From: Jiangella mangrovi
GTDB lineage: Bacteria > Actinomycetota > Actinomycetes > Jiangellales > Jiangellaceae
Reading direction: 5' to 3'
DNA length: 64,000 bases
NCBI RefSeq assembly: GCF_014204975.1
Contig: NZ_JACHMM010000001.1
Location: forward strand, 5,704,037 to 5,768,036
Below the pieces are notes generated by a model, which searched no databases, was not told where the DNA came from, and saw nothing but the letters and a program-made list of their open reading frames with translations. Every line of letters begins with the position of its first letter. Positions within the stretch are counted from its first letter, which is position 1. A program made the translations under genes and the position numbers. Below, piece after piece: positions 3,367 to 39,578 of this stretch.

Positions 3367-3927
3367 ATGACCGACCGAACGCCGGACCACATCGCCCGTC
3401 TGGTCCCCCGGCTGGGGCTGACGGGCACGGAGCGCATCCTCGAACTGGGCGCGGCGCCGGGGGCCGCCGTCGCGGTGATCGGGCCGCTGCTCGCGGGCGA
3501 CGGGCACGTGACGGCGCTCGACCGGTCGGCCGTCGGGGTGCGGCGGATCCACGAACGCAACCGCGATCTCGTCGACGCCGGGCGGCTCACCGTCCTCGAG
3601 CAGGACCTGACGATGCTCGACGGCGACAGCCTGAGGCCGGCGCGGTTCGACGTGATCTTCGCATCCAACGTCAACGTGTTCTGGACGCACCCGGACAAGG
3701 CGAACGTCGCCACGCTGGCAGGGCTGCTCGCGCCGGGCGGCCGGCTGCACCTCTTCTACGGCTACGGCCCCGGCGACGGCGTGAGCCGCCCGGGCGGCCC
3801 GGGCAGCGGCCGCGACACGGGCGGCCTCGTGGCGGCCACGTTGGAACGCGACAGCGCGCTGACCGCCGTCACGGTCGACGGGGTCAGCGCGCCGCTGGAG
3901 ATCCGCGCGTCGCGGATCGTCGGCTAA
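3367..3927 (+). CDS. Class I SAM-dependent methyltransferase
   Basis: This 186-residue protein has the seven-strand methyltransferase pattern. Motif I is ERILELGAAPGAA (about 22-34), with the usual Gly-rich loop partly Ala/Pro. The acidic end of strand 2 is VTALDRS. Then come the strand-3 acidic pair LEQDLTM and a motif-IV-like segment FDVIFASNVN, followed by LLAPGGRLHLFYG. The substrate cannot be told. The last bases overlap the stop of the convergent secreted phosphodiesterase gene (TAA 3925-3927 against TAG at 3924-3926). Confidence 0.85.
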   Translation: MTDRTPDHIARLVPRLGLTGTERILELGAAPGAAVAVIGPLLAGDGHVTALDRSAVGVRRIHERNRDLVDAGRLTVLEQDLTMLDGDSLRPARFDVIFASNVNVFWTHPDKANVATLAGLLAPGGRLHLFYGYGPGDGVSRPGGPGSGRDTGGLVAATLERDSALTAVTVDGVSAPLEIRASRIVG

Positions 3928-4769
3928 CGGGCCGACAGGAACGCGTCGAGGCCGGCGAGGTCGTCGGTGTTGAGGTGGTCGACGCCGGCGGCGAGCAGCT
4001 CGGTCCAGATCGCGTCGCGCGCCGGGCCGGGGGTGTCGGGCGTCGCCCAGAACCGGACCCGGTAGCCCGCGGTGTGCGCCGTCGCGACGATCTGCCGCAG
4101 CTTCGCCCGCTCGGCCTCCGGGATCGGGCCGACGCCGCGCCAGGTGAAGTGGTTGCCCCAGTTGTCACTGAGCAGTGGCATGAAGCTGGCCGGAAGGCCG
4201 CCGGTCAGGTCGCCCAGCCGGCCGTCGTACCCGGCGAAGCGCAGCCGCTGCGACAGCAGCGTCGCGCGCGGCCGGTCGCCGCTGATGACCGCCGTCACGG
4301 CGCCGGTCTGCACGCGGTCGCCCATGAACCGGGTCATGATGTCCTGGTAGCGGCGCAGCACGGAGTCGATCTCCGCGTAGGTCGCCTCGCCGGTGTTCTT
4401 GATGTCGATGAGCAGCTGCAGCGAGCCGTCCCAGCCCGGGTACACCGAGCCGCCGTTGGCGTGGACGACGTCGCGCAGCGGGTCGAGGTACAGCGACTCC
4501 AGGGTGCGGCCGGGCTGGACCTGCCAGGCGTCGTGCGCGACCAGCAGCTCGCCGTCGACGAGCCAGACATCGGCCTCGACGCTGGTGAACCCGTGGTCGA
4601 GCGCGTCGAGGAGCGGGCGCTCGTGCTCGTAGTCGTTGTGGGCGTGGGCTGGGTCGTGGGGGTCGCCGACGGCGTTCGCCGTGGCCGTGACGGCGAGGCC
4701 GAGAGCGGCCGCCAGCGGGACCACGACGACGGCGCGGACGATTCGACGGAAACGGGACCGATCGCTCAT
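3924..4769 (-). CDS. Secreted glycerophosphodiester phosphodiesterase/PI-PLC-like protein
   Basis: A 281-residue protein starts at ATG 4769. It has a Sec-type signal (basic MSDRSRFRR, hydrophobic core to about residue 30, AxA-like cleavage near TANA). The mature part opens with AHNDYEHERPLLDALDHG and continues EADVWLVDGELLVAHD, the paired His and Glu/Asp positions expected for the TIM-barrel GDPD/PI-PLC active site. A later LLIDIKN and the C-terminal HLNTDDLAGLDAFL fit the barrel end. It probably hydrolyses glycerophosphodiesters or phospholipid head groups outside the cell. Convergent with the methyltransferase gene. Confidence 0.85.
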   Translation of the reverse strand: MSDRSRFRRIVRAVVVVPLAAALGLAVTATANAVGDPHDPAHAHNDYEHERPLLDALDHGFTSVEADVWLVDGELLVAHDAWQVQPGRTLESLYLDPLRDVVHANGGSVYPGWDGSLQLLIDIKNTGEATYAEIDSVLRRYQDIMTRFMGDRVQTGAVTAVISGDRPRATLLSQRLRFAGYDGRLGDLTGGLPASFMPLLSDNWGNHFTWRGVGPIPEAERAKLRQIVATAHTAGYRVRFWATPDTPGPARDAIWTELLAAGVDHLNTDDLAGLDAFLSAR

Positions 4770-4867
4770 GACCGCTACCGTCGAGGCGATTGACAACGAG
4801 TCAATGTCGGGTTCGCGACGGGCGGACGACGACTGTGCGAACGGTTCCCCCCGGCCGCTCCGGTCGC

Positions 4868-5530
4868 TCAGGTCGTGGTGTCGGACCCGCCGTCGACGGA
4901 GAACTCGACGGCGTCCCAGTCGCCGTAGTCGTCGAAGCCGATGAACTGGGCCTCGACGGAGTCGCCCGCGGCCAGCGCCGAGACCGACGTGGTGAGCGTC
5001 GACACCGCCTCGTCGCCGTTGAGCACGGTCGCCGTCAGCGAGGCGAAGTCGACGTCGGCGTCGCCGTCGTTGGTCACCGTCGCGCGGACCTCGAAGTCGC
5101 CGGCGAAGTCGCGCAGCACCTCGACGTCGGTGAACGTGTAGTCGCCCACGGTGAACTCGCCCTCGAACGGCGTCGGCTCGGACTCGAGCGGCTCCTCCGG
5201 CGTCTCGGTCGCCCGCGACTCCAGCTCGGCCCGCGCCTCGTCGAGCCGGCGTTTGAGGTCGTCGCGCTGCTCCTCGATCTGGGCGAGCCGGTCGCGCAGC
5301 CGCTCGAGCTCGTCGCTCTCGTCGCCGGTCTCGCCGGGCGACGGCGTCTGCTGGGCGGACGGGGTGGAGTCGTCGTCGACGGCCAGCCCGACGACGAGCC
5401 CGGCGCCCGCGCCCACGAGCAGCGCCAGCACCGCCACCAGCGGCCACACCCACCGGCGCCGACGAGGCTCGCCCGGCGGCGGCGGCGGCGGGGGTGGCGG
5501 CGGGGCGGACGGCACGGGCTGGAAGCTCAT
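4868..5530 (-). CDS. Pro-rich/TM/coiled-coil protein with FxLYD-like C-terminal domain
   Basis: A 220-residue protein in this order: polyproline (residues 9-19), one transmembrane segment (about 27-49), a Ser/Thr/Pro linker, a charged coiled coil (about 72-108, containing RDDLKRRLDEARAE), and a beta domain (about 120-220) with DYTFTDVEVLRDFAGDFEVRATVTN, typical of FxLYD-like domains in exported actinobacterial proteins. It is probably membrane-anchored with the beta domain outside. It shares its N-terminal half architecture with the protein at 1-435, so the two are likely paralogues. Confidence 0.8.
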   Translation of the reverse strand: MSFQPVPSAPPPPPPPPPPGEPRRRRWVWPLVAVLALLVGAGAGLVVGLAVDDDSTPSAQQTPSPGETGDESDELERLRDRLAQIEEQRDDLKRRLDEARAELESRATETPEEPLESEPTPFEGEFTVGDYTFTDVEVLRDFAGDFEVRATVTNDGDADVDFASLTATVLNGDEAVSTLTTSVSALAAGDSVEAQFIGFDDYGDWDAVEFSVDGGSDTTT

Positions 5531-5543
5531 TTGGCGCAGAATG

Positions 5544-6800
5544 CTACCCGTTCACGCCCGTCAGCTCGTTGGGGATCTCCGGCAACGCGGCCGTGGCGGT
5601 GACGGTTCCGGCGGCGAGGTCGACGGCGTGGATCTCGCTCGCCACGGGGTCGGTCACGTACGCCGTGTCGCCGTCGACGACGAGGGTCGGCCGCGGCTGC
5701 TGCCAGTCCTGCGGCTCGGTCCATTCCTCGATGACCGGGATCGTCGACGTCACCCGTCCCGTCACCGGTTCGATGACGTGGATGGCGCCGTCGGTGCCGA
5801 GCACCAGCGCCTCGCCCTCGGGGCCGCGGCCGAGCGAGCGGAACGTGTAGCTGACGCCCAGGTCGACCAGGCGCAGCGTGCTCGTGGCGGTGTCGATGAG
5901 CGACACCCGCTCGGGCCGCTCCAGCTCGGCGTCCGGGTCGGACTTGTAGTCGCCGAGGACGACGGCGGACGCGTCGGTTCCCGCCTGGTTGCCGATTCGT
6001 CCGTACGGGTCCGGGCTGGCGATCTTGGTGAACGCGCCGTCGCGGTAGACGAGCACGCCGTCCTCGCAGCCGACGACGACGGCCTCGTCGGCGGCGACGG
6101 CCTCGCCGTGCACGCCAGGGCACTCCTCGCTGCGGGCGATCTCGGCGCGGCCGGCGTCGAGGACCTTGGCGCCGGTGCGAGTCGTCTCGTCGCCGAGCGT
6201 GACGAGCAGCTCGTCGTTCGCGAGCTGGACGGCGACGCCGTGGTGCGGCTGGTCGGCGAGGACGACCTCGGTCTCCGGGGCGACGCCGTCGGCGCGGTCC
6301 TCGGCGGCGAGGTCGGCGGCGGCGAACAGCTCGATCCGGCCCGAGCCGTCGCTGAACAGGACCGTCGCGCCCGCGTGCCGGACCACGTGGCCCGGGTGGT
6401 CGGCCTCGAACTCGACGTCGGTGAGGGCCGGCTCGCCGACGTAGTGGTGGGCGTGGTCGCCGTGCCGGGTGCTCCAGGCGCCGGTGTCGAGGACCCGGAA
6501 CGCGGCGTCGGCCGAGACCAGGACATGCCGGCCGTCGCCCGCCGCGTTGACCCTGATGAAGCCGGGCAGCTCGATCGTCTCGAGCACCTCGAGCGACTCC
6601 CCGTCGAGCACCATCAGGCCGCCGTCGTACGTCGCGACCAGCCGCGACTCGGCCTCGTCGACCTCGCGACCGCCGTCGGACACAGGCGTCGAAGTGCTCC
6701 GCGACGTGCCCTGCGGTGCGGAGCTCTCGCCGCCGCACGCGGCGAGGAGGAGTCCGGACAGCGCGAGCGTGGCGGCGACGGTGATGCGTGGTGTGGTCAT
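5544..6800 (-). CDS. aztD: AztD-like zinc metallochaperone (beta-propeller lipoprotein)
   Basis: A 418-residue protein is predicted from ATG 6800. The N-terminus is a lipoprotein signal (hydrophobic core, lipobox LLAAC near residue 22). The rest is a seven-blade beta-propeller. A His-rich loop, HGDHAHHYVGEPALTDVEFE (about residues 110-130), and further sites such as DQPHHGV and PGVHGEAV match the zinc-binding layout of AztD, which hands zinc to the AztABC importer outside the membrane. No aztABC genes are in the window. A perfect palindrome sits 16 bases before the start, so zinc (Zur) control is likely. It could instead be a relative of the YncE propellers. Confidence 0.75.
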   Translation of the reverse strand: MTTPRITVAATLALSGLLLAACGGESSAPQGTSRSTSTPVSDGGREVDEAESRLVATYDGGLMVLDGESLEVLETIELPGFIRVNAAGDGRHVLVSADAAFRVLDTGAWSTRHGDHAHHYVGEPALTDVEFEADHPGHVVRHAGATVLFSDGSGRIELFAAADLAAEDRADGVAPETEVVLADQPHHGVAVQLANDELLVTLGDETTRTGAKVLDAGRAEIARSEECPGVHGEAVAADEAVVVGCEDGVLVYRDGAFTKIASPDPYGRIGNQAGTDASAVVLGDYKSDPDAELERPERVSLIDTATSTLRLVDLGVSYTFRSLGRGPEGEALVLGTDGAIHVIEPVTGRVTSTIPVIEEWTEPQDWQQPRPTLVVDGDTAYVTDPVASEIHAVDLAAGTVTATAALPEIPNELTGVNG

Positions 6801-6815
6801 GGCAGGACGGTAATC

Positions 6816-6828
6816 GAGAACGGTTCTC
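6816..6828. promoter_or_regulatory. Candidate Zur-type operator of the aztD-like gene
   Basis: GAGAAC-G-GTTCTC is a perfect 6+6 palindrome with one central base, in a locally AT-richer stretch directly upstream of the zinc chaperone gene and about 95 bases from the rightward gene at 6923. Actinobacterial Zur boxes are palindromes of similar shape upstream of zinc genes. The assignment to Zur is inference. Confidence 0.5.
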
Positions 6829-6922
6829 AAATTCAAGTAGTGATCGGTGCCCGGAATGGGCGATCGAGGACTAGGCTCGGCGGCGCATCCTGATCGTCCG
6901 TTCCACGCTGCGAGGAGTTCCG

Positions 6923-7810
6923 GTGTCGAAGCGCCGTCAGGCAGGCCGGCGGGCGGCAGGCCGGCCCGACCCCGGCGAGGGCGGCGACGACCTGCCGGAA
7001 GCGGCGGCCGACCCGCTCCTTCCTGCCGACGACCGCGCCGGCGGCCGGGCCCCGGGTGGCCCTGCCGCCGAGCGGGCCGCGGCCGGCGCTCGCGCGGCGC
7101 AGCGCCTCGCCGCCGGCCGGCGAGCGGCGAGGGGTCCCGCCCCCGTGCAGCCCTCCCCCGTGCAGCCCTCCCCCGCTCGACCGGCCCCCGGTCCGCCGGC
7201 CCCCAGTCAGCCGGCCCCCAGTCAGCCGGCCCCCGGTCAGACCCTCAGTCAGCCGGCCCCCGGTCAGACCCTCAGTCAGCCGGCCCCGGCCGTGGATCCG
7301 AGCGCGGAGCGCGCCGCCGCCGGAGCTCGTGCGGCCCAGCGTCTCGCCGCCGGTCGCCGGGCGGCCCGTCGCGGCCTGCCCGAGCCGGCGAGCAACGAAC
7401 CCTCGACCCGCGACAGGGAGGCGACGGCGACCTGGTCGGCGTTCCCCGACTCACCGCCCCGCCCCCGCCGCGCCGCCCGCCAGCCGACGCTGCCGCTGTC
7501 GGCCCCTGACCACACGGGACCACCCGCGCGGCCGCAGGTGACGCCGTCGGGCCCCGTGCCGCGCCGGTCCGGGCCGATCGAGATCCCGTCGATCGGCGAG
7601 CTCGCGCTGTACGGGACGCTCGCGACCGCCGTCGCCGTCGCCGTCCTGATCGTGAACGACCGGCCCTACTGGCAGGCTGCCGCCGTCGTCGCCGGTGCCG
7701 CCCTGCTGATCGTGCTGCTGGCCGTCGTGGCGGCGCGATCGCGGCCGGACCGGCCCGCCGACGATCCAACACGACCGCGACCCGAGGACCGACGACGCCG
7801 GCGCACGTAG
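6923..7810 (+). CDS. Hypothetical Ala/Arg/Pro-rich membrane protein with internal repeats
   Basis: A 295-residue protein starts at GTG 6923 with GAGGAG upstream. The first 190 residues are low complexity. A 20-odd-residue unit, [20 protein letters not shown], occurs twice (about residues 49-70 and 127-148), separated by Pro/Gln/Ser repeats. Two closely spaced hydrophobic segments (about 228-268) form a hairpin anchor, followed by a very basic tail. The charged Ala-rich repeats suggest helical, possibly coiled, cytoplasmic stretches. No family recognised. It lies directly upstream of orn. Confidence 0.65.
7141..7288 (+). repeat. In-gene short tandem repeats (Pro/Gln/Ser)
   Basis: Units such as CCCCCGTGCAGCCCT and GGCCCCCAGTCAGCC, and a longer unit carrying GGTCAGACCCTCAGTCAG, are each present two or more times in tandem. 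They encode QPSPV, SQPAP and PGQTLSQPA repeats in the protein at 6923-7810. Such tracts vary in copy number between strains by slippage. Confidence 0.8.
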
Positions 7811-7833
7811 GGCGTTCCCATAGGGTTGTGGGC

Positions 7834-8484
7834 GTGACGAATGATCGAATGGTGTGGATCGACTGCGAGATGACCGGCCTCGACCTGCAGCGCGACGCGC
7901 TCATCGAGGTGGCGGTACTCGTGACGGACGCCGAGCTCACCGTCCTCGGCGACGGGGTCGACGTGGTCATCCGCCCTCCCGACGCCGCGCTCGAGAACAT
8001 GAACGACGTCGTCCGCACCATGCACACCGCCAGCGGCCTGCTCGAGGAGCTCCCCGGTGGCGTCACCATGGACGAGGCGAACGCGCTGGTCATGGCCTAT
8101 ATCAAGGAGCACGTGCCGGAGCCGTCGAAGGCGCAGCTCGCGGGCAACACCGTCCACATGGACCGGCTGTTCCTCGCGCGCGACCTGCCCGAGGTCGAGA
8201 GCTGGCTGCACTACCGCAACATCGACGTGTCGTCGATCAAGGAGCTCGTGCGCCGCTGGTATCCGCGGGTCTACTTCGCCAGCCCCGCCAAGACCGGCAA
8301 CCACCGCGCGCTCGGCGACATCAAGGACTCCATCGACGAGCTGCGGTACTACCGGCGCACGGTCTTCGTCCCCATGCCGGGGCCCGACAGCACCAGCTCC
8401 CGCGCCGCCGCGGTCTCCGTCATGAACGAGGCCCGCGCCGAGGGTGCCCGCGCCGATCAGGCGTCCGACGGCGCCCCGACGTAA
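7834..8484 (+). CDS. orn: Oligoribonuclease (DEDDh 3'-5' exoribonuclease)
   Basis: Orn degrades 2-5 nt RNAs and linear dinucleotides such as pGpG in the cytoplasm. Family motifs are complete: [10 protein letters not shown] with the first Asp and Glu, the middle Asp after NTVHM, and [15 protein letters not shown] with the catalytic His and last Asp. The length of about 216 residues fits actinobacterial Orn with its extended Ala-rich tail. GTG 7834 was preferred over GTG 7828 because AGGG at 7822 then lies 8 rather than 2 bases away. tRNA-His follows, a frequent arrangement in actinomycetes. Confidence 0.96.
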
Positions 8485-8490
8485 CCCGTT

Positions 8491-8519
8491 CTCGACCACT
8501 CCGTCCGGCACCGTATACT
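8491..8519 (+). promoter_or_regulatory. Probable tRNA-His promoter
   Basis: A good -10 element TATACT (8514-8519) lies 17 bases after a weak -35-like CTCGAC (8491-8496). The tRNA begins 31 bases downstream of the -10, after a short GC hairpin (8528-8546). Confidence 0.55.
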
Positions 8520-28581: not shown

Positions 28582-30024
28582 TCAGTGCCGGGGCGGCACC
28601 ATGATTGTTTCCGTGCCTCGTCCGGCTGCCGTTGCGTGACACAGGAATGACTGGCCGGTGAACACGTCGGCGGTGGAGCAGCCCTCGCTGTCGGTGACGG
28701 TGACCCGAGCCAGGTGGACGCCCGGCGAACGGTACACGTGTGTGGGCATTGGACCGCCGTCGAGCAGTCTGGTGCCGTCGCCGAAGTCCCAGTCGTAGCG
28801 GACGACCCTCCCGTCCGGGTCGGCCGAGCCGGTGGCGTCGAACCTGGTCACGGTCCCGGCGCGACCGACGTCGGCTGTGATGGCCGCGATAGGGCCCTGG
28901 TTCGGCCGGATCGCCAGCGACTGCGAGGCCGGGCCGCGACCACCGGTCGGCACCGCGGAGTCCGAGGTCGGGACCAGACCGCCGGATGTCACCCGGTACG
29001 CAGACAGCTCGCTTGAGTCGAAGTTGCTCACGAACAGCAACCGGCCGTCCGGGCTTGTGGTGATGCCGACCGGACCCAGTCCGGCCTTGACCGGCTCCCC
29101 GAGCGGGCGCAACGCGCCGTTGGGCCGCACGTCGAACGCGGTGACCGCGCTCGTACCGGCGTCGGGACGGTCCTGGCCCGGGCTGGCGACGAACAGCCGC
29201 CGCCCGTCGGGCGAGATCGCGATGCCCTCGGAGTGGTCGGCGACGGCGTACGGCGACCCGGGCAGGGCGGTGAGCCGGCCGTCGGGGCGGATGCGGAAGC
29301 CGTAGACCTCGTCGGTGCTGATGGTTGCGGTGTACAGGAACTTGCCGTCGGGGGTGATCCCCATGCCGGTCGCCGCGCCGCCCGTCTCGGCCACGACGCC
29401 GCGTGGCCGTAGCTCGCCGTCGTGACCGATCGCGAAGCGGACGAGGATGTTCGTCGGCTCGGTCAGTGGGATGCCGTGGCCGACGTAGAGCGAACGGCCG
29501 TCCGGGGTGACCACCAGGCCGCGTGGGCTGTCGAACCCCGTCGGCACCGGGTTCCCGCGGCGCGCCAGGGTGCCGTCGGCGGCGATGTCGAAGGCAGTGA
29601 CGGTGCCGGAGCCGACGTTGCTGACGTACAGTGACCGCCCGTCGGGTGCCATCGCGATGCCGAAAACGACGCTGCCGCCGGTCGGCACCGGCGGCGCCAG
29701 CAGGGACAACTCGCCGTTCTCGCCCACCTCGTAGGTGGCGACCCGCCCGGAGTCGCGGTAGGCCACGTAGGCGACGTCACCGTCGGGGGCGAACACAACG
29801 CCGTTGGAGCCGTCTCGCCCACCGGTGGGTTCGACGACGCCAGTCGGCACCGGCGTCCCGTCCGCGCCGACGGCGAACGACGCGACGTCGCTGCTGGCGC
29901 CGTTGCCGACGACGAGCGTGCGGCTCGCCGCGGGCTGGTCACCGGGCGACGCAGCGCCAGGCCCAATACCGGTGGACACCACTAAGCCCGCCGCGAGCGC
30001 GACGGCCGAGATCCGTACGAACAT
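28582..30024 (-). CDS. Secreted lactonase-like beta-propeller with PKD domain
   Basis: A 480-residue protein from ATG 30024 with GGAGGATC upstream; signal peptide to about residue 26 (ALAAGLVVSTGIGPGAAS). Residues about 35-385 are a seven-blade propeller with repeated APDGR/SPDGR-type turns (GIAMAPDGRSLYVSN, GITTSPDGRLLFVSN), as in 6-phosphogluconolactonase/YVTN-like proteins. Residues about 390-455 form a PKD domain (RFDATGSADPDGRVVRYDWDFGDG ... RVTVTD). Probably a secreted binding or scaffold protein; no catalytic site assigned. Island cargo without evident operon partner. Confidence 0.85.
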   Translation of the reverse strand: MFVRISAVALAAGLVVSTGIGPGAASPGDQPAASRTLVVGNGASSDVASFAVGADGTPVPTGVVEPTGGRDGSNGVVFAPDGDVAYVAYRDSGRVATYEVGENGELSLLAPPVPTGGSVVFGIAMAPDGRSLYVSNVGSGTVTAFDIAADGTLARRGNPVPTGFDSPRGLVVTPDGRSLYVGHGIPLTEPTNILVRFAIGHDGELRPRGVVAETGGAATGMGITPDGKFLYTATISTDEVYGFRIRPDGRLTALPGSPYAVADHSEGIAISPDGRRLFVASPGQDRPDAGTSAVTAFDVRPNGALRPLGEPVKAGLGPVGITTSPDGRLLFVSNFDSSELSAYRVTSGGLVPTSDSAVPTGGRGPASQSLAIRPNQGPIAAITADVGRAGTVTRFDATGSADPDGRVVRYDWDFGDGTRLLDGGPMPTHVYRSPGVHLARVTVTDSEGCSTADVFTGQSFLCHATAAGRGTETIMVPPRH

Positions 30025-30269
30025 GCACGATCCTCCAGAGTTCGCCGGCAGATCCACGTGAGGGCAGAACCGCGGCCCGCCGGGTAGAAGAGCCCTCAGC
30101 ATCGAGTACGTGCCGAGGCCGCCGATGGACGGCGATGTGACGACAGTCATACGGGCCGACCCGCGCATCCATGAGCTGGCTCCGGGGCAGCAGGTTGCCG
30201 TGGCGCGGGTCTTCCTGGAGAGTCGACCCCAGTCTGTACACCGGGCGTGGCATTGCCTGCGCGTACTGC

Positions 30270-31340
30270 TCAAGCCGGGCCAGATGCACGCACAAGCAGC
30301 CGGGCCGGCGCGCGGAACGACAGCAGGTCGATCATGGGGGATGCAGCTTCCGCTCGGCGCAGGCGCGGGAGCAGCGGCGCGGCACACTCCAATGCCACCG
30401 TGGTCTCCATGCGCGCCAGCTGTGCGCCGAGGCATCTGTGGACGCCGATGCCGAAGGCCAGATCCCCCGGTCCGCCGGTGCCGGTGAGGCGAAGCAGGAG
30501 CGGAGCCTTGGCGGGCAGCTCGACGTTGTCGAGGTTCACGGGGCGAGATGTGAGCCGGCGCCAGGTGGGCACCGATGACGCCTCGCGCAGCACCTGCTCG
30601 GTCGCCGCGGCGGCATCGGTGACGGCGGTTCCGATCAGGCGATCGAAGGCGGCCGAGACGAGTTGGCTCGTGGTCTCGTGGCCGGCGATCAGCAGGAAGT
30701 ACACGGTCGCGCAGATCTCCTCGTCGGAGAGCTGGGATCCGGCGAGCGTACCGAACAGGTCGCTTGTGCCGGGCCGTTTCCGTCCCGCGGCCGTGCGTTG
30801 GCGCAGCCAGCAGTAGTAGGCGGCAGCGCTCCGGGCGAGCTCGAGCTGGCGGGCCGGGTCGGGCTGGCCCCAGAACAACTCCAGGGAGTGCTGGCTCCAC
30901 CTCGACAGCGCGCCGACGTCGGCCGCGGCGATGCCCAGCAGATCCAGCAGCACCAACGCGGGCGGGCCTGCCGCGACGTCTGCGACCAGGTCGACGGTGT
31001 CGCCCGTGGCGAGCCTGCGGGCGATGCCGTCCAGTCGGGCCGTGATCAGCTGCCGTATCCGCGGCTCGGCGGCGGCGACTCTGCGCGGGCTGAAGTACGC
31101 GGCCACCGTGCGGCGGATGCCTCGATGTGCCAGGCCGCTATTGCTGGCCAGCGTCGGCGGAAGCGCAAATCCCGCGGCTGCGAGGACACGCAGCGACGCC
31201 GGCGTGAGCGGGGTGTGCGCCTGGAGCGCGTTGTCGGGGCGGAACGTCTCAGGATCGAGGAGGATCCGGCGCACCAGCGCCGGGTCCTCGACCACCCAGT
31301 GGCGCAGACCGGGGTCGTGCTGCACCGGGCAGCCGGTCAC
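30270..31340 (-). CDS. Compact cytochrome P450 linked to biotin genes
   Basis: A 356-residue P450. GTG 31340 was chosen because it overlaps the bioD stop as GTGA. The I-helix motif is AGHETT (219-224) and the haem ligand loop is FGIGVHRCLG (296-305) with the Cys. Two oddities: the K-helix ExxR motif reads EQVLR, so the conserved Glu position is Gln249 (QVLR); and only about 44 residues separate it from the haem loop, with the usual A-N-R-D-P meander text missing. By context it may act like BioI, which cleaves acyl chains to pimelate for biotin. Its activity is uncertain. Confidence 0.88.
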   Translation of the reverse strand: MTGCPVQHDPGLRHWVVEDPALVRRILLDPETFRPDNALQAHTPLTPASLRVLAAAGFALPPTLASNSGLAHRGIRRTVAAYFSPRRVAAAEPRIRQLITARLDGIARRLATGDTVDLVADVAAGPPALVLLDLLGIAAADVGALSRWSQHSLELFWGQPDPARQLELARSAAAYYCWLRQRTAAGRKRPGTSDLFGTLAGSQLSDEEICATVYFLLIAGHETTSQLVSAAFDRLIGTAVTDAAAATEQVLREASSVPTWRRLTSRPVNLDNVELPAKAPLLLRLTGTGGPGDLAFGIGVHRCLGAQLARMETTVALECAAPLLPRLRRAEAASPMIDLLSFRAPARLLVRASGPA

Positions 31341-32050
31341 TTGGCGCAGCCCAGCTGCTCGGCACTGCCCAGCCACGCCGCATCACTCAGCCAGTCCCGG
31401 GCGCCTGCGACGAAGTCCGCCCGCGGCAGCCTGCCAGCGCCCGCGGGAATCCGACCCAGGAGCGGCGCGCCGCTCGTCGCGGGCAGGTCTGCGAGGTTGT
31501 GTCGGGCGGCGAGGTCCGGAGTCTCGGGCCACGAACCGATCACCAGGCCGGCGATCGGCAGGCCGCGGCTGCGTAGTGCGTCGACGGTGAGCGCCGTGTG
31601 GTTGAGCGTGCCGAGCCCCGCGCGAACCACCACGACGATGTCGAACGGCGTCGCCAGCCGGGCCGCTAGGCCGGCGAGGTCGGCCCCGTCGCCGTCAAGT
31701 CGAACCAGCAGACCGCCGGCACCTTCGACCAGGACGCGATCGCGCGTCCGCGCGAGGTCGTCGATCCGCGCCTCGTGCTCGGCGATGTCGGGCAGCGGCA
31801 CGTTCCGCAGCCGTGCGGACGTGGCTGGTGCGAGTGCATCGGGCATGCGGGCGTGCTCGTGAACGTCGTCGATCCCGGTCATGGCCCGGACGACGTCAAT
31901 GTCACCGGGCTCGCCGGGCCGGACGCCGGTCTGGGCCGGCTTGACCACGGCCACCCGTCCGGCCGCGATCGCCGCGAGCGCCGCGGTCACGATCGTCTTG
32001 CCGACGCCGGCGTCGGTGCCGGTCACGACGACGACCCTCGGCGCCGTCAC
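31337..32050 (-). CDS. bioD: Dethiobiotin synthetase
   Basis: BioD makes dethiobiotin from 7,8-diaminopelargonate, CO2 and ATP. The 237-residue protein has the P-loop GTDAGVGKT (residues 11-19), the substrate Lys in VAVVKPAQTG, and the VEGAGGLLVRL motif. The start GTG 32050 overlaps the stop of the truncated bioF as GTGA, and its own stop overlaps the P450 start. No bioA or bioB lies in the window, so any biotin pathway must be completed elsewhere. Confidence 0.93.
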   Translation of the reverse strand: MTAPRVVVVTGTDAGVGKTIVTAALAAIAAGRVAVVKPAQTGVRPGEPGDIDVVRAMTGIDDVHEHARMPDALAPATSARLRNVPLPDIAEHEARIDDLARTRDRVLVEGAGGLLVRLDGDGADLAGLAARLATPFDIVVVVRAGLGTLNHTALTVDALRSRGLPIAGLVIGSWPETPDLAARHNLADLPATSGAPLLGRIPAGAGRLPRADFVAGARDWLSDAAWLGSAEQLGCAK

Positions 32051-32345
32051 CGGGCCTTCCCGAGGACGGCAGCAACCAGCTCGCCGGCATTGGTCAGCAC
32101 ATCGCCCGTCAGCCCCGCCCGGCCAGTGAGGCGGATCCGGCTGATCCCGTCAGGGACGGATGGCGGCCGAAAGCAACCCACGCGGACCCCTGCGACCAGG
32201 CAGCGCCGGCTGACGTCGACGGCTTCCCTGGGTCCCGGTAGCGGCACCGACACCACCGCGCCCTCGCCCGGCGCGACGCCACACGCCGCCGCCAGTCGGG
32301 ACGCAGCCTCCAGGGCCTGGCCTGGTCGTCCCGGCTCCTCCGGCG
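32047..32345 (-). pseudogene. bioF: 8-amino-7-oxononanoate synthase, 3' fragment
   Basis: Only about 95 C-terminal residues remain: GEGAVVSVPLPGPREAV, GVRVGCFRPPSVPDG and SRIRLTGRAGLT match the BioF C-terminal domain. The PLP-lysine region and the whole N-terminal domain are missing. Homology stops near 32345, exactly where a rightward tyrosine recombinase fragment begins, so the 5' part was lost in a rearrangement. The GTGA link to bioD shows the original operon order bioF-bioD-P450. Confidence 0.82.
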
Positions 32346-32891
32346 TCGACGAGCTCACTGCGTTGCTCGCGACCTGCAAGGGCAACACGTTCTACAACCG
32401 GCGCGACGAGGCGGTCATCCGGCTGTTCCTCGACACGGGCATGCGGGCCGGCGAGCTGCTGGGCCTCGAGTTAGATGACGTCGACCGTGAACAGTCGATG
32501 GCGTTCGTCACGGGCAAGGGTGGCCGCGGCCGGGCCTGCCGGTACGGGGTCAAGACGGCCGAGGTGCTGCGCCATTAGCTGCGCGCGGGCCAAGCACCCA
32601 CAGTCGGCGTTGAAGGCCTTGTGGCTGAGCAAGCGCGGCAGCCTCACCGACTCCGGCGTCCGACAGGTGCTCGAACGCCGCTGCGACGACGCCGGCATCC
32701 CGCACATCCACCCGCACCAGTTCCGCCACACCATGGTCCACCGCTGGCTCGCCGCCGGCGGCCAGGAGAACGACCTCATGCGGCTGGCCGACTGGCGCTC
32801 CCGCGAGATGATCAGCCGCTACGCCGCCTCCGCCGCCGACGAACGCGCTCGCGACGCGCACCGGCGCATGGCCCTAGGTGATGAACTGTGA
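32340..32891 (+). pseudogene. Tyrosine recombinase, truncated and frameshifted
   Basis: The catalytic domain is recognisable across two frames: VIRLFLDTGMRAGELLGLELDDVD (Arg box), GKGGRGR (Lys region), then after a frameshift near 32575 HIHPHQFRHTMVHRW (H-x-x-R box), ADWRS and the Tyr of MISRYAAS, ending at TGA 32889-32891. The N-terminal core-binding domain is gone. It is unrelated in sequence to the island integrase and marks a second, dead mobile element inside the island. Confidence 0.85.
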
Positions 32892-35835: not shown

Positions 35836-36844
35836 GGGCGTGTCTAGTGGATCTTGTTGGTTGGTCTCGGTAGAACGGGTTTGTGCTTGATCGACATGAC
35901 CTGACCGATGTGGAGTGGGCTGGTCTGGAGCCGTTGTTGCCGGATCGGAGTCCGCGCCGGGGCGGTCGTTGGGTGGATCACCGCATGGTGATCAACGGGG
36001 TGCTGTGGCGGACCCGGACCGGCGCCCCGTGGCGCGATCTGCCGCCGGACTACGGGACGTGGCAGACCGTGTATGCGCGGCATCGCCGCTGGTCAGCCGA
36101 TGGTACGTGGGAACGGATCGTCGCTGGGTTGCAGGCCGGGAGCGACACCGACGACGCCGGGCGGTGGGTGGTGGCGATGGACTCGACGGTGGTCCGCGCC
36201 CACCAGCATGCCGCGGGCGCGCGGCATGAACCGCCCAAGGATGTGCCTGCCGAGCGGCTGGGGGTCGCCCTGGGCGACCAGCCGGCCCGGACGGGGGGGC
36301 GGCATCGAATGACAAGAAGCCGCCGCTGCGGGAAGGGTTGGGTCGTTCTCGCGGCGGATTGACCACGAAGCTTCACCTGATCGCTGATCGCCGCTGCCGT
36401 CCGTTGGCGCGGGTGACCACCGCCGGGAACCGCAACGATTCGCTGGCCTTCGAACCGCTCATCACCCGATTGTCGATCCGCCGCCGCGGCGGCGGGCGGG
36501 CACGCACCCGGCCCAGCCAGCTGCTGGCCGACAAGGCCTACTCCACCGGGCCCATCCGCGCGTGGCTGCGCAAACACCACATCACCGCGGTCATCCCGAC
36601 CCCCAGCAGCCAGCAGCGTGGACGCCGCAACCGCGGCCGCAACGGCGGCCGGCCCCCGAACTTCGACCCCGCCGCCTACCGCGACCGCAACACCGTCGAG
36701 CGCACGATCAACAAGCTGCGCGGCTACCGCGCCGTGGCCATGCGCACCGACAAACGCGACTTCGTCTACCGCGGAACCATCGACGTCGCCAGCATCAGAA
36801 TCTGGCTCCGCGACCACCAACGACAAGATCCGCCAGACACGCCC
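35836..36844 (+). mobile_element. IS5-family insertion sequence, copy 1
   Basis: 1009 bp. Imperfect terminal inverted repeats begin GGGCGTGTCTAGTGGATCTTG at the left and GGGCGTGTCTGGCGGATCTTG at the right (read inward). The flanking TA is duplicated within a CTAG target (35834-35835 and 36845-36846). Two overlapping transposase frames are inside. It looks complete and interrupts the DUF6907-like gene. Confidence 0.88.
35883..36362 (+). CDS. IS5-family transposase, N-terminal part (OrfA)
   Basis: Encodes the N-terminal domain: LTDVEWAGLEPLLPDRSPRRGG, WRTRTGAPWRDLPPDYG, then VVAMDSTVVRAHQHAAGARH with the first catalytic Asp. A run of seven G (36293-36299) is placed so that a -1 slip continues into OrfB (ASNDKKPPLREGLGRSRGGLTTK). 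OrfA and OrfB together make one full DDE transposase. Confidence 0.85.
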   Translation: MLDRHDLTDVEWAGLEPLLPDRSPRRGGRWVDHRMVINGVLWRTRTGAPWRDLPPDYGTWQTVYARHRRWSADGTWERIVAGLQAGSDTDDAGRWVVAMDSTVVRAHQHAAGARHEPPKDVPAERLGVALGDQPARTGGRHRMTRSRRCGKGWVVLAAD

Positions 36845-36847
36845 TAG
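36338..36847 (+). CDS. IS5-family transposase, C-terminal part (OrfB)
   Basis: Carries the rest of the DDE domain: RSRGGLTTKLHLIAD, LLADKAYST (second Asp), and YRDRNTVERTINKLRGYRAVAMRTDK with the catalytic Glu. It has no ribosome binding site of its own and is expected as a frameshift product. Its TAG stop (36845-36847) lies outside the element and is supplied by the duplicated target CTAG. Confidence 0.85.
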   Translation: MGRSRGGLTTKLHLIADRRCRPLARVTTAGNRNDSLAFEPLITRLSIRRRGGGRARTRPSQLLADKAYSTGPIRAWLRKHHITAVIPTPSSQQRGRRNRGRNGGRPPNFDPAAYRDRNTVERTINKLRGYRAVAMRTDKRDFVYRGTIDVASIRIWLRDHQRQDPPDTP

Positions 36848-36967
36848 GGAGAACACCGACGACACGACGGCACCCAGGATGACCACGTGGTTGTCCGGGT
36901 GGCGACGCGCGTCCCGGAAGTCGCACCAGCGCGGGCACGGCGACCTCTCGGCCGTGTTCACGCCGGT

Positions 36968-37144
36968 TTACGAGGTCACCAGTTTCAGCTGCGCCCGCAC
37001 GTGGTGCCTGGCTCTGCGCCGCTCGGTCGCACGGCGCCGGTCCGGCTCTGCCTTGTGGCGCGGACAGATGGCTGCGATGGCGTCCAGCTCCGCGTCTAGT
37101 TCGGCGTCGGACTTGTCGGAAGGGGGTGGTGGCTCACGACGCAC
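36968..37144 (-). CDS. Small hypothetical protein of mobile-element type
   Basis: A 58-residue frame from GTG 37144 to TAA 36968. It reads MRREPPPPSDKSDAELDAEL, AIAAICPRHK and a very basic Arg-rich end. It lies 6 bases upstream of the interrupted DUF6907-like gene, so the two form an operon. A 21-codon leftward frame (ATG 37199, PYPGFVPRLG) precedes it. Helical, function unknown. Confidence 0.6.
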   Translation of the reverse strand: MRREPPPPSDKSDAELDAELDAIAAICPRHKAEPDRRRATERRRARHHVRAQLKLVTS

Positions 37145-37248
37145 CGCCGCTCATCGCCCGTCCCAGCCGGGGTACGAAGCCGGGATACGGTCGAGGCATG
37201 GGCCGGGATCTGTGGCGCCGACAGCGCAGGACCGCTAGAGCGTGTCTC

Positions 37249-37814
37249 CTATATGCGCGCCCATGTGATGCAGGCGGACAGCACGACGGCGGCGCGGTAG
37301 GTGATCGCGAGCTTGTCGTAGCGGGTGGCCAGTCCTCGCCATTGCTTGATCAGAGCGAAGGAGCGTTCGACGACGTTGCGCTGCTTGTAGGTCTGCTCGT
37401 CCAGGGCCGGAGGTCGCCCGCCGGCCGAGCCCTTGCGTTTGCGGGCGGCGATCTCGTTCTTCTTCTGCGGGATCACGGCCTTGATGTGCCGGGCTGCGAG
37501 CATCTGGCGGTTGACGCCGGAGGTGTAGGCGCGGTCGGCGATCACCGCGTCCGGGGTGGTGCGGGCCCGGCCCGGCCCCAGGCGAGGGACGCGGATGTCG
37601 GCCAGCACCTCGGTAAGCATCACGCCATCGTTGCGCTGCCCGCCGGTGATGACCGCGGCCAGCGGGCGGCCGTGTCCATCCACCGCAAAGTGGATCTTGC
37701 TGGTCAGTCCGCCACGCGACTTGCCGATACCGTGACCTGCAGGTTCACGTTCCCCGCCGATCGGGCTAGGAACGAACCCGTCAGGCTGACTCGTGTGATT
37801 CGCCCGCGCCCCCC
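37249..37814 (-). CDS. IS5-family transposase OrfB, copy 2
   Basis: Encodes GKSRGGLTSKIHFAVDGHGRPL, AVIADRAYTSGVNRQML (second Asp), and YKQRNVVERSFALIKQWRGLATRYDK with the catalytic Glu, ending at TAG 37249. The join to OrfA lies at six G (complement of 37809-37814). Here OrfB is in the +1 frame relative to OrfA, unlike the -1 relation in copy 1, so an indel may have occurred. Confidence 0.8.
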
Positions 37815-38158
37815 GTGTCCCGCTCCGGGCGCGTGGTGTTCGTGGCGTGCTGGTGGGCACGGTTGATCGTGGCGTCCACCGACACCGTCCAATCGATCTG
37901 ACCAGCGGCGTCCGCCTGGGCAAGCAGCCCGGCCAGCACCTTGTCCCAGGTCCCATCCTCGGCGTATCGGCGGTGCCGCTTCCAGACCGTCTTCCACGGC
38001 CCGAATGGCTCTCGGGGCAGGTCCCGCCACGGGATCCCGGTCCGGTACCGGTAGACGATCCCCTCCACCACCCGCCGGTTATCCCAGAACGGGTGGCCCC
38101 GCCGCCCCGCGTTCGACGGCAGCAACGGCTCGATCTGCTCCCACTGAGCATCGGTCAA
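37781..38158 (-). pseudogene. IS5-family transposase OrfA, copy 2, 5' end cut off
   Basis: Codons from LTDAQWEQIEPLLPSNAGRRGH to GGAGESHESA remain. Joining across the IS256-family insertion and one target copy gives an upstream extension GTG-SSSRFES before LTDAQW, a plausible original start. The frame can still be opened from TTG codons supplied at the junction, but without a recognisable ribosome binding site. Confidence 0.75.
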
Positions 38159-39578
38159 GGTCAAGTCCGGTGACGTGGTGTACGAGGTCTGATCCCTCGT
38201 CGTTGTGCTTCAGGCCGTGATGGCTTGCAGGGTCAGCTCCTCGTCGGTCACCTCCTGCTCGGCTGTTGCGACGGCCTGGGAGCGGGTGAGGACGTCGAGT
38301 CCGAGGTAGCGGCGGCCTTCGGCCCACTCGTCGTGCTGTTCGGCCAGGACGGCGCCGACGAGGCGGATGATCGAGGGCCGGTCGGGGAAGATCCCGACCA
38401 CGTCGGTGCGGCGGCGGATCTCGCGGTTGAGGCGCTCGTTGGGGTTGTTCGACCAGATTTGTCGCCAGATCTCCTTGGGGAACGCGGTGAAGGCCAGGAT
38501 GTCGGCGCGAGCGTGTTCGAGGTGGTCAGCGACGGCGGGGAGTTTCTCGGTCAGGGCGTCGACGACGCGGTCGAACTGGGCATGCACCGACTCGGCGTCG
38601 GGCTGGTCGTAGATGGAGTGCAGCAGGGCCTTGACCCAGCCCCACGAGTTCTTCGGTGTCGCTGACATGAGGTTGGCGGCGTAGTGGGTGCGGCAGCGTT
38701 GCCAGGCCGCACCCGGCAGAGTCGCCTCGATCGCGGAGGTCAGCCCGCGGTGGGCATCGGACGTGACGAGCTTGACCCCCGTGAGGCCGCGGGCGGTCAG
38801 ATCTCTGCAGAAGGCGAGCCAGCCGGCGCCGTCCTCGCTGGTGGTCACGTGGATGCCGAGGATCTCGCGGTGCCCGTCGGCGTTCACGCCGGTCGCGACC
38901 AGCGCGTGGACTGCGACGACCCGGCCACCCTCGCGGACCTTGAGCACGAGTGCGTCGGCGGCGACGAACGTGAACGGCCCGGCGTCGGCCAGCGAGCGGG
39001 TGCGGAACTGCTCCACGTGCGCGTCGAGGTCCTTGGCCATCTCCGAAACCTGCGACTTCGACAGGGCCGTGATGCCCAACGACTGCACCAGCTTGTCCAT
39101 CCGCCGGGTGGACACCCCGAGCAGGTAGCAGGTCGCCACCACCGAGGTGAGTGCCCGCTCGGCCCGCTTCCTGCGCTCGAGCAGCCACTCGGGGAAGTAG
39201 GACCCCTGACGCAGCTTGGGCACCGCGACATCGATCGTGCCGGCACGGGTGTCGAAGTCGCGGTGCCGGTAGCCGTTCCGCCGGTTCACCCGCTCCGGGC
39301 TGGTCGTGCCGTACTGCGCACCACACACCGCGTCAGCCTCGGCCGACAACAGCGTGTTGATGAACGTCTGCAGCAACTCGCGCAACAGATCCGGGCTGGC
39401 CTGGGCCAGCTGTTCCTCGAGCAGGCGGGCAGGGTCGATACTGGTCCTGACGGTCATCGTTGGTGTCCTTCTTCGAGTCGGTTGTGAGAGATCACTCGAA
39501 GGATCACCCGGTGGCCGTCACCCACATCTACAGCGACACGCTCACCGGGATCGGTACACCACTCTGCCGGACGTCACT
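38159..39578 (-). mobile_element. IS256-family insertion sequence
   Basis: 1420 bp, bounded by 8-bp target duplications TCGGTCAA (38151-38158 and 39579-39586). Imperfect terminal repeats of about 25 bp share GTCCGG-N4-GTGGTGTAC. It carries one complete transposase gene and is nested in the second IS5-family element, so it arrived later. Confidence 0.9.
38210..39457 (-). CDS. IS256-family (mutator-type) transposase
   Basis: A 415-residue complete transposase. Catalytic residues by pattern: Asp168 (VAADALVLKVREG), Asp234 (VTSDAHRGL) and Glu341 (NPNERLNREIRRRTDVVGIFP), plus the family's C-x2-H-like QRCRTHY motif. Length and motifs are normal, so it is probably active. Confidence 0.95.
   Translation of the reverse strand: MTVRTSIDPARLLEEQLAQASPDLLRELLQTFINTLLSAEADAVCGAQYGTTSPERVNRRNGYRHRDFDTRAGTIDVAVPKLRQGSYFPEWLLERRKRAERALTSVVATCYLLGVSTRRMDKLVQSLGITALSKSQVSEMAKDLDAHVEQFRTRSLADAGPFTFVAADALVLKVREGGRVVAVHALVATGVNADGHREILGIHVTTSEDGAGWLAFCRDLTARGLTGVKLVTSDAHRGLTSAIEATLPGAAWQRCRTHYAANLMSATPKNSWGWVKALLHSIYDQPDAESVHAQFDRVVDALTEKLPAVADHLEHARADILAFTAFPKEIWRQIWSNNPNERLNREIRRRTDVVGIFPDRPSIIRLVGAVLAEQHDEWAEGRRYLGLDVLTRSQAVATAEQEVTDEELTLQAITA

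Follow-up and report, generated by a model that had tools for sequence, protein, structure and literature searches.

An ExxR-less cytochrome P450 family of actinobacterial biotin operons and its probably stranded member in Jiangella mangrovi

The window, by which we mean the whole 64,000-nucleotide stretch of Jiangella mangrovi DNA that was analysed, carries on its minus strand a bioF remnant (32388-32047), bioD (32050-31337) and a cytochrome P450 gene (31340-30270), in that order. The features of this locus are as follows.

30270..31340, minus strand: biotin-operon P450 of 356 amino acids (GTG start overlapping the bioD stop; Pfam p450 match; AlphaFold2 model)
30426..30455, minus strand: haem loop FGIGVHRCLG with the Cys ligand, codon TGC at 30434-30432 (sequence and alignment)
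30456..30554, minus strand: short interval from TWRR to the haem loop, lacking ANRDP-type meander text (alignment; secondary structure of the model)
30555..30566, minus strand: TWRR motif (alignment, 67/67 rows)
30585..30599, minus strand: K-helix EQVLR, with Gln replacing the ExxR Glu and the Arg retained (sequence and alignments)
30669..30686, minus strand: I-helix AGHETT, oxygen-activation Glu-Thr retained (alignment)
31337..32050, minus strand: bioD, dethiobiotin synthase (TIGR00347, 92.1 bits, cut-off 83.3)
32047..32388, minus strand: C-terminal remnant of bioF (partial TIGR00858 match; tblastn)
32342..32578, plus strand: tyrosine recombinase fragment at the end of the bioF homology (PF00589)
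32475..32891, plus strand: second tyrosine recombinase fragment, in a different frame (PF00589)

The P450 reading frame was open throughout. It starts with the GTG at 31340, which shares the sequence GTGA with the bioD stop, so the gene coordinates of the first-pass annotation fit; a longer open reading frame starting at 31376 was set aside as mechanical. The annotation had spoken of an operon fusion with a partial bioF and bioD. Linked, overlapping genes with only a C-terminal fragment of bioF were indeed present, but the GTGA overlap means that the genes are not fused. The protein matched Pfam p450 (PF00067) at 5.5e-10 (39 bits, cut-off 22.8). Downstream of it, on the same strand, 28582-30030 encodes a lactonase-like beta-propeller protein that also has a PKD domain.

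P450s are commonly identified by ExxR and the meander, which are regarded as a lock on the haem domain, and ExxR occurs in almost every P450. The window protein has the Cys-ligand signature of the superfamily, FxxGxxxCxG, as FGIGVHRCLG, and reads QVLR where ExxR is expected. The Gln codon (CAG, 30596-30594) aligned with the Glu of nine control rows with canonical K-helices, which represent eight proteins, as one Streptantibioticus cattleyicolor P450 is recorded twice, under L027 and L033. Between the Arg of the ExxR position and the Phe of the haem loop we counted 43 residues, in place of the 61-62 found in the nine controls, and the alignment contained no ANRDP-like text in this interval. The first-pass annotation had thus read the K-helix, the distance to an intact haem loop ("about 44") and the missing ANRDP text correctly. 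The last Arg of the TWRR motif presumably occupies the position at which P450s bind a haem propionate. An AlphaFold2 model built from a 67-row alignment gave a P450 fold (pLDDT 88.4, pTM 0.88), and the fold matches listed for it were P450s.

With the window protein as sole query, an initial genome scan found no relative. The first relatives, at 45-48% identity, were L006 (genome G023), the Arthrobacter plasmid loci L025 and L026 and the Paenarthrobacter plasmid locus L028, all lacking both ExxR and ANRDP-type meander text. A genome scan with alignment A2 found 137 relatives, of which 80 were taken further; these came from Arthrobacter and its allies, Sinomonas, Cryobacterium, Salinibacterium, Knoellia, Kocuria, Zhihengliuella and three Kribbella. 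Relatives from the genome scan were combined with loci from 197 genomes of the family to which G023 belongs, and the P450 family was delimited as the 115 rows reaching at least 230 bits in BLASTP against three members, a cut of our choosing. The rows include duplicates from genomes present twice and comprise 97 distinct sequences by their last 250 residues. Most belong to Micrococcaceae, with others from Knoellia, Cryobacterium and Kribbella. A phylum-wide scan of 396 genomes with a Kribbella protein reached E 1e-50 only in the window genome and G023; with five candidates scored per genome in most cases, the scan is a poor measure of how far the family extends beyond Micrococcaceae.

Glu was found at the ExxR Glu position in none of the 115 rows (one has Asp), and Arg at the ExxR Arg position in three, namely the window protein, L111 and L113. 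The commonest residue pairs were H..A (46), R..A (18) and Q..A (11), and among the 124 aligned rows E..R occurred in the nine controls only. Column conservation was assessed in the 67-row alignment A4, and K-helices were read through the loci of 30 of the 57 P450-positive genomes in the family of G023. The residue at the Arg position was A in 54 of the 67 rows, T in six, R in three, and I, V, Q and G in one each. By comparison, the C-helix His and Arg, the I-helix Glu-Thr, TWRR, and the F, G, G, H, R, C and G of the haem loop were present in all 67 rows. ANRDP-like text was found in none of the 67. Thus the trait belongs to the family and does not reflect damage to the window copy. The family search had been proposed in the first-pass annotation with the provision that orthologs with normal ExxR and a full-length meander would overturn its reading; the 115 rows contained none, and only the more distant S. 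cattleyicolor bio-cluster P450 was canonical.

The description of a compact P450 with a shortened meander holds for the window copy but does not extend to the whole family. The distance from the Arg position to the Phe ranged from 43 to 71 residues across the 67 rows, so shortening of the stretch between K-helix and haem loop is not universal; in many members a variable linker fills an interval of ordinary length. In a model of the Arthrobacter protein L036, residues 311-350 had pLDDT values of 48-65, as against 91-95 and 81-98 in the flanks (291-310 and 351-380); this fits a weakly ordered linker, as modelled, rather than a retained meander. Closest to the window protein are Kribbella sequences (60-63% identity), with the pairs Q..R, Q..Q and K..R and, in all, a spacing of 43 residues. 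Such Kribbella-type members appear intermediate between the EEMLR and HVLA states. Pfam p450 scored the Kribbella member L111 (6833-8026) at 20.3, below the gathering score of 22.8, and three other members at 26-33 bits, just over it; with such scores, annotation may overlook genes of the family or give them no name.

The search for further operons, also suggested in the first-pass annotation, revealed a strong linkage. In 112 of the 115 rows, bioD lay no more than 250 nt from the P450 gene and in the same orientation, just upstream in 58 and just downstream in 54, so that the family shares a biotin-operon location with BioI/CYP107H. Layouts with bioD upstream were bioB-A-F-D-P450 in Arthrobacter and bioA-F-D-P450 in Kribbella; the downstream layout was bioB-A-F-P450-D. 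In the annotation of L026, bioB, bioA, bioF, bioD and the P450 gene are consecutive. The three rows without a neighbouring bioD were L028, L091 and L106, and the reading frames of the latter two look broken. On the Paenarthrobacter plasmid, the L028 gene (5977-7116) stands away from bio genes, beside genes for a dihydropyrimidinase, an M20 hydrolase and a nucleobase transporter. Apart from bio genes, the open reading frames recurring beside the P450 were only short or overlapping (L036 compared with 47 loci; L083 with 26). In L036, the one locus scanned in this way, the gene between bioB and bioA (3408-3803) matched the model of BsaP, the biotin synthase auxiliary protein, at 80 bits (cut-off 39), and this reading frame had counterparts in 42 of the 47 loci of that layout. 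The BioB proteins of the bioF-P450-bioD type (L083 and others, about 3426-4502) are ~35% identical to those of the bioF-bioD-P450 type.

We then considered which biotin gene the P450 accompanies, using the 197 genomes of the G023 family. Genomes were scored as P450-positive at E <=1e-60 (the next matches start at 1.9e-40) and as bioF-positive at <=1e-60 (next 1.8e-51). The P450 was present in 57 genomes, bioF in 71, bioB over cut-off in 103, and P450 and bioF together in 56; Fisher's test gave p 6e-34, a value that overstates independence because the genomes are related. The P450 occurred with bioF in 56 of its 57 genomes and with bioB likewise in 56 of 57. Among bioB-positive genomes, however, it was found in 55 of the 70 with bioF and in only 1 of the 33 without it, and the P450 therefore tracks BioF, the consumer of the pimeloyl thioester, and not biotin synthase as such. 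The lone P450 without bioF, in G164, begins 104 bases short of a contig end, so the lack of bioF there may be no more than an assembly gap.

Other sources of pimelate were looked for through bioW and bioC. No bioW was found in the 197 genomes, and no bioC over the cut-off, a strict, curated one that only 1 of the 14 control genomes passes; weaker bioC matches (75-81 bits, cut-off 185) occurred in 13 of the 197. Fifteen of the 71 bioF-positive genomes had no P450, and in the six of these that were examined no P450-like gene lay beside bioF-bioD, so other solutions exist. All six have bioA-F-D together, four of them with bioB as well. In one (L162, 16-3167), tctC, tctB and tctA directly follow bioA-F-D on the same strand; as a guess from one genome, this TctCBA-type tricarboxylate transporter might import a dicarboxylate such as pimelate and so replace the P450 step. 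Another (L164) has a short-chain fatty acid transporter gene on the other strand and, after bioD, a 269-aa open reading frame without a family match. In the remaining four, unrelated genes stand beside bioF.

The window operon itself is broken. Its bioF piece matched only positions 295-355 of the 365 in profile TIGR00858, and tblastn aligned residues 277-370 of Kribbella BioF, with homology ending at 32337, next to the integrase fragments. Beyond these fragments, near the broken operon, IS4/5-type transposase genes lie on both strands (35883-38164). In the window genome (7.16 Mb, one contig), nothing passed the cut-offs for bioB (best match 36.9 bits) or bioA (280 bits, cut-off 405), and no intact bioF was found (best match 372 bits, cut-off 426). 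The cut-offs are strict, being passed in 7 (bioB), 5 (bioF) and 6 (bioA) of 14 control genomes, and an absent bio gene therefore means that nothing passed; the bioF-like gene of L027 likewise fell below the bioF cut-off (383 bits). A second family scan in the window genome dealt with the 372-bit bioF-like gene, which we rejected as an intact bioF: since it passed Kbl family models (634.8 against a cut-off of 460; 608.9 against 493) and failed the bioF model, this long gene is Kbl (glycine C-acetyltransferase).

With the operon broken, neither bioA nor bioB over cut-off and no intact bioF, the window P450 probably no longer serves biotin synthesis. No close P450 relative was found in 11 genomes of the same genus and 10 of the same family (best E 4.5e-21, 33% identity). 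Furthermore, 67 columns show a single residue throughout the other 66 rows, and the window row deviates at three of them. No other row has as many private changes of this kind: one has two, 13 have one and 52 have none. The cut bioF beside integrase fragments, the missing pathway genes, the lack of close relatives in related genomes and the private changes together indicate that the window copy is probably an acquired, now stranded remnant in decay.

Could decay also explain the missing motif? On this account, ExxR and the meander were lost after the operon broke, in line with the broken operon and with the window row having the most private changes. But the Gln and the 43-residue spacing recur in Kribbella L111, which sits inside a bioA-F-D-P450 operon, the Glu is gone from all 115 rows, and the window frame is open with its haem-site residues retained. 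We therefore reject damage as the cause of the trait and give that account hardly any credence, while decay is still likely for the present state of the window copy. Nor do we think it at all probable that the proteins are non-catalytic P450-like helpers, comparable to P450-derived glycosyltransferase activators. Loss of a nearly universal structural motif and the score of L111 under the Pfam cut-off would suit such helpers, but the Cys ligand, Glu-Thr, C-helix His and Arg, and haem-loop Phe persist in 67 of 67 rows. The window protein had five matches at E 0.001, the activator model TIGR04515 not among them, and this model stayed below its cut-off of 343 elsewhere (44.2 bits for L026, 111 bits for the sister L027).

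A further alternative is that the P450 modifies an intermediate of the biotin pathway or makes a biotin-like antimetabolite, and does not supply pimelate. Streptomyces clusters for biotin antimetabolites with P450s do exist, according to a recent paper (PMC13336041). In the genomes studied here, however, the P450 accompanies bioF and bioB in 56 of 57 cases each, one bioB passes the cut-off per genome, and the recurring non-bio reading frames beside the P450 are short or overlapping, all of which speaks against this role; we regard it as unlikely. Our preferred reading is that the window P450 is a stranded member of a biotin-operon P450 family which, in intact operons, probably acts as a BioI-like supplier of pimelate and works without the ExxR-meander (ERR) triad. 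The pimelate role is proposed because of the operon linkage, the co-occurrence with bioF, the lack of alternatives as far as searched and the intact haem and oxygen-activation residues. The P450 would cleave a fatty acyl chain oxidatively, likely on ACP, as BioI does, and the pimelate unit released would pass to BioF. The haem site would be of ordinary make-up, with the ERR triad absent, and TWRR and the rest of the K-helix may stabilise the haem domain in its place. Catalysis, substrate, C-C cleavage and compensation by TWRR are what we infer for this enzyme.

On the origin of the family, a quick maximum-likelihood tree of 87 rows, with long-branch warnings for L027 and the controls, placed the ExxR-less sequences in one clade (SH-aLRT 94; 86 without the columns from K-helix to haem). 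Its sister was the canonical S. cattleyicolor bio-cluster P450 L027 (support 100; 99), a placement that is tentative. The simplest reading of these sequences, though not a proven one, is that ExxR was lost within a biotin-linked lineage that formerly carried it. We lean slightly towards a broader proposal, in which a primary-metabolism P450 family without the ERR triad, still active and probably C-C-cleaving and pimelate-making, arose from CreJ/CYP116B-like ancestors by a recruitment separate from that of BioI, with the Kribbella-type members (Q..R, Q..Q, K..R) as a living half-way stage from EEMLR to HVLA. The family would also suggest a pimelate source for biotin in many soil actinobacteria. 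If true, a natural family of ~100 sequences linked to a vitamin pathway would show that the ERR triad is dispensable in working enzymes, and its graded natural intermediates are offered for testing why the triad can go.

Among known P450s, the best structural neighbours of the window model were CreJ (Z 37.0, 350 residues aligned, 2.6 A), which we take to be CYP288, and CYP116B (Z 34.3-36.3); the two were also the best sequence matches (CreJ at E 9.2e-34). Like the family, CreJ and CYP116B have such a stretch after the K-helix, GWRR in place of TWRR. Unlike it, CreJ and CYP116B46 have EVLR and ECLR K-helices and full-length meanders, and we know of no biotin link for the CreJ/CYP116B group. The S. 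cattleyicolor P450 of L027 adjoins bioB and is convergent with a bioF-like gene, and is the sister in our tree, but has an EEMLR K-helix and the 61-residue spacing of the controls; its megaplasmid locus (about 4019-8502) comprises bioD, bioB and this canonical-ExxR P450 gene.

BioI of Bacillus subtilis (CYP107H1) carries a normal ExxR. It resembles the family as a biotin-operon P450 with presumed pimelate supply and a P450 fold. The BioI-acyl-ACP entries 3ejb, 3ejd and 3eje matched the window model at Z 31.0-31.4, amid many other P450s, and their structural alignments gave only 21-22% identity over 335-339 aligned residues. Neither the window protein nor the family profile had a BioI entry code among its 60 best PDB sequences. 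By sequence and predicted fold, the window P450 is thus nearer to CreJ/CYP116B than to BioI, and because kinship to BioI is so low, a BioI-like role would be convergent. The earlier suggestion of a BioI-like role in an unusual biotin-pathway P450 stands as probable, through the biotin-operon ties, for the family; the kinship lies elsewhere, and the window operon is broken. At 21-22% identity, the protein also falls outside CYP107H under the >40% rule given in PMC3599690. MkpG, a P450 termed BioI-homologous in a 2026 paper (PMC13336041), is reported there to be required for making alpha-methyl-KAPA in a Streptomyces cluster; as described, it resembles our case as a P450 required upstream of a BioF-type enzyme.

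A biotin-operon P450 family without ExxR was not found described in open-licence PMC papers, judged by title and start of abstract, although ExxR loss as such is already known. The precedent of CYP157, cited in the first-pass annotation, is sound: these Streptomyces P450s lack ExxR and read EVLW, EQILW or EQSLW (PMC3599690). CYP157, however, has Trp in place of the Arg, a residue seen at this position in none of our 67 rows, whereas the biotin family varies at both positions and has lost the meander text too. Finally, CYP157 genes follow conservons, whereas the genes of this family sit in biotin operons.
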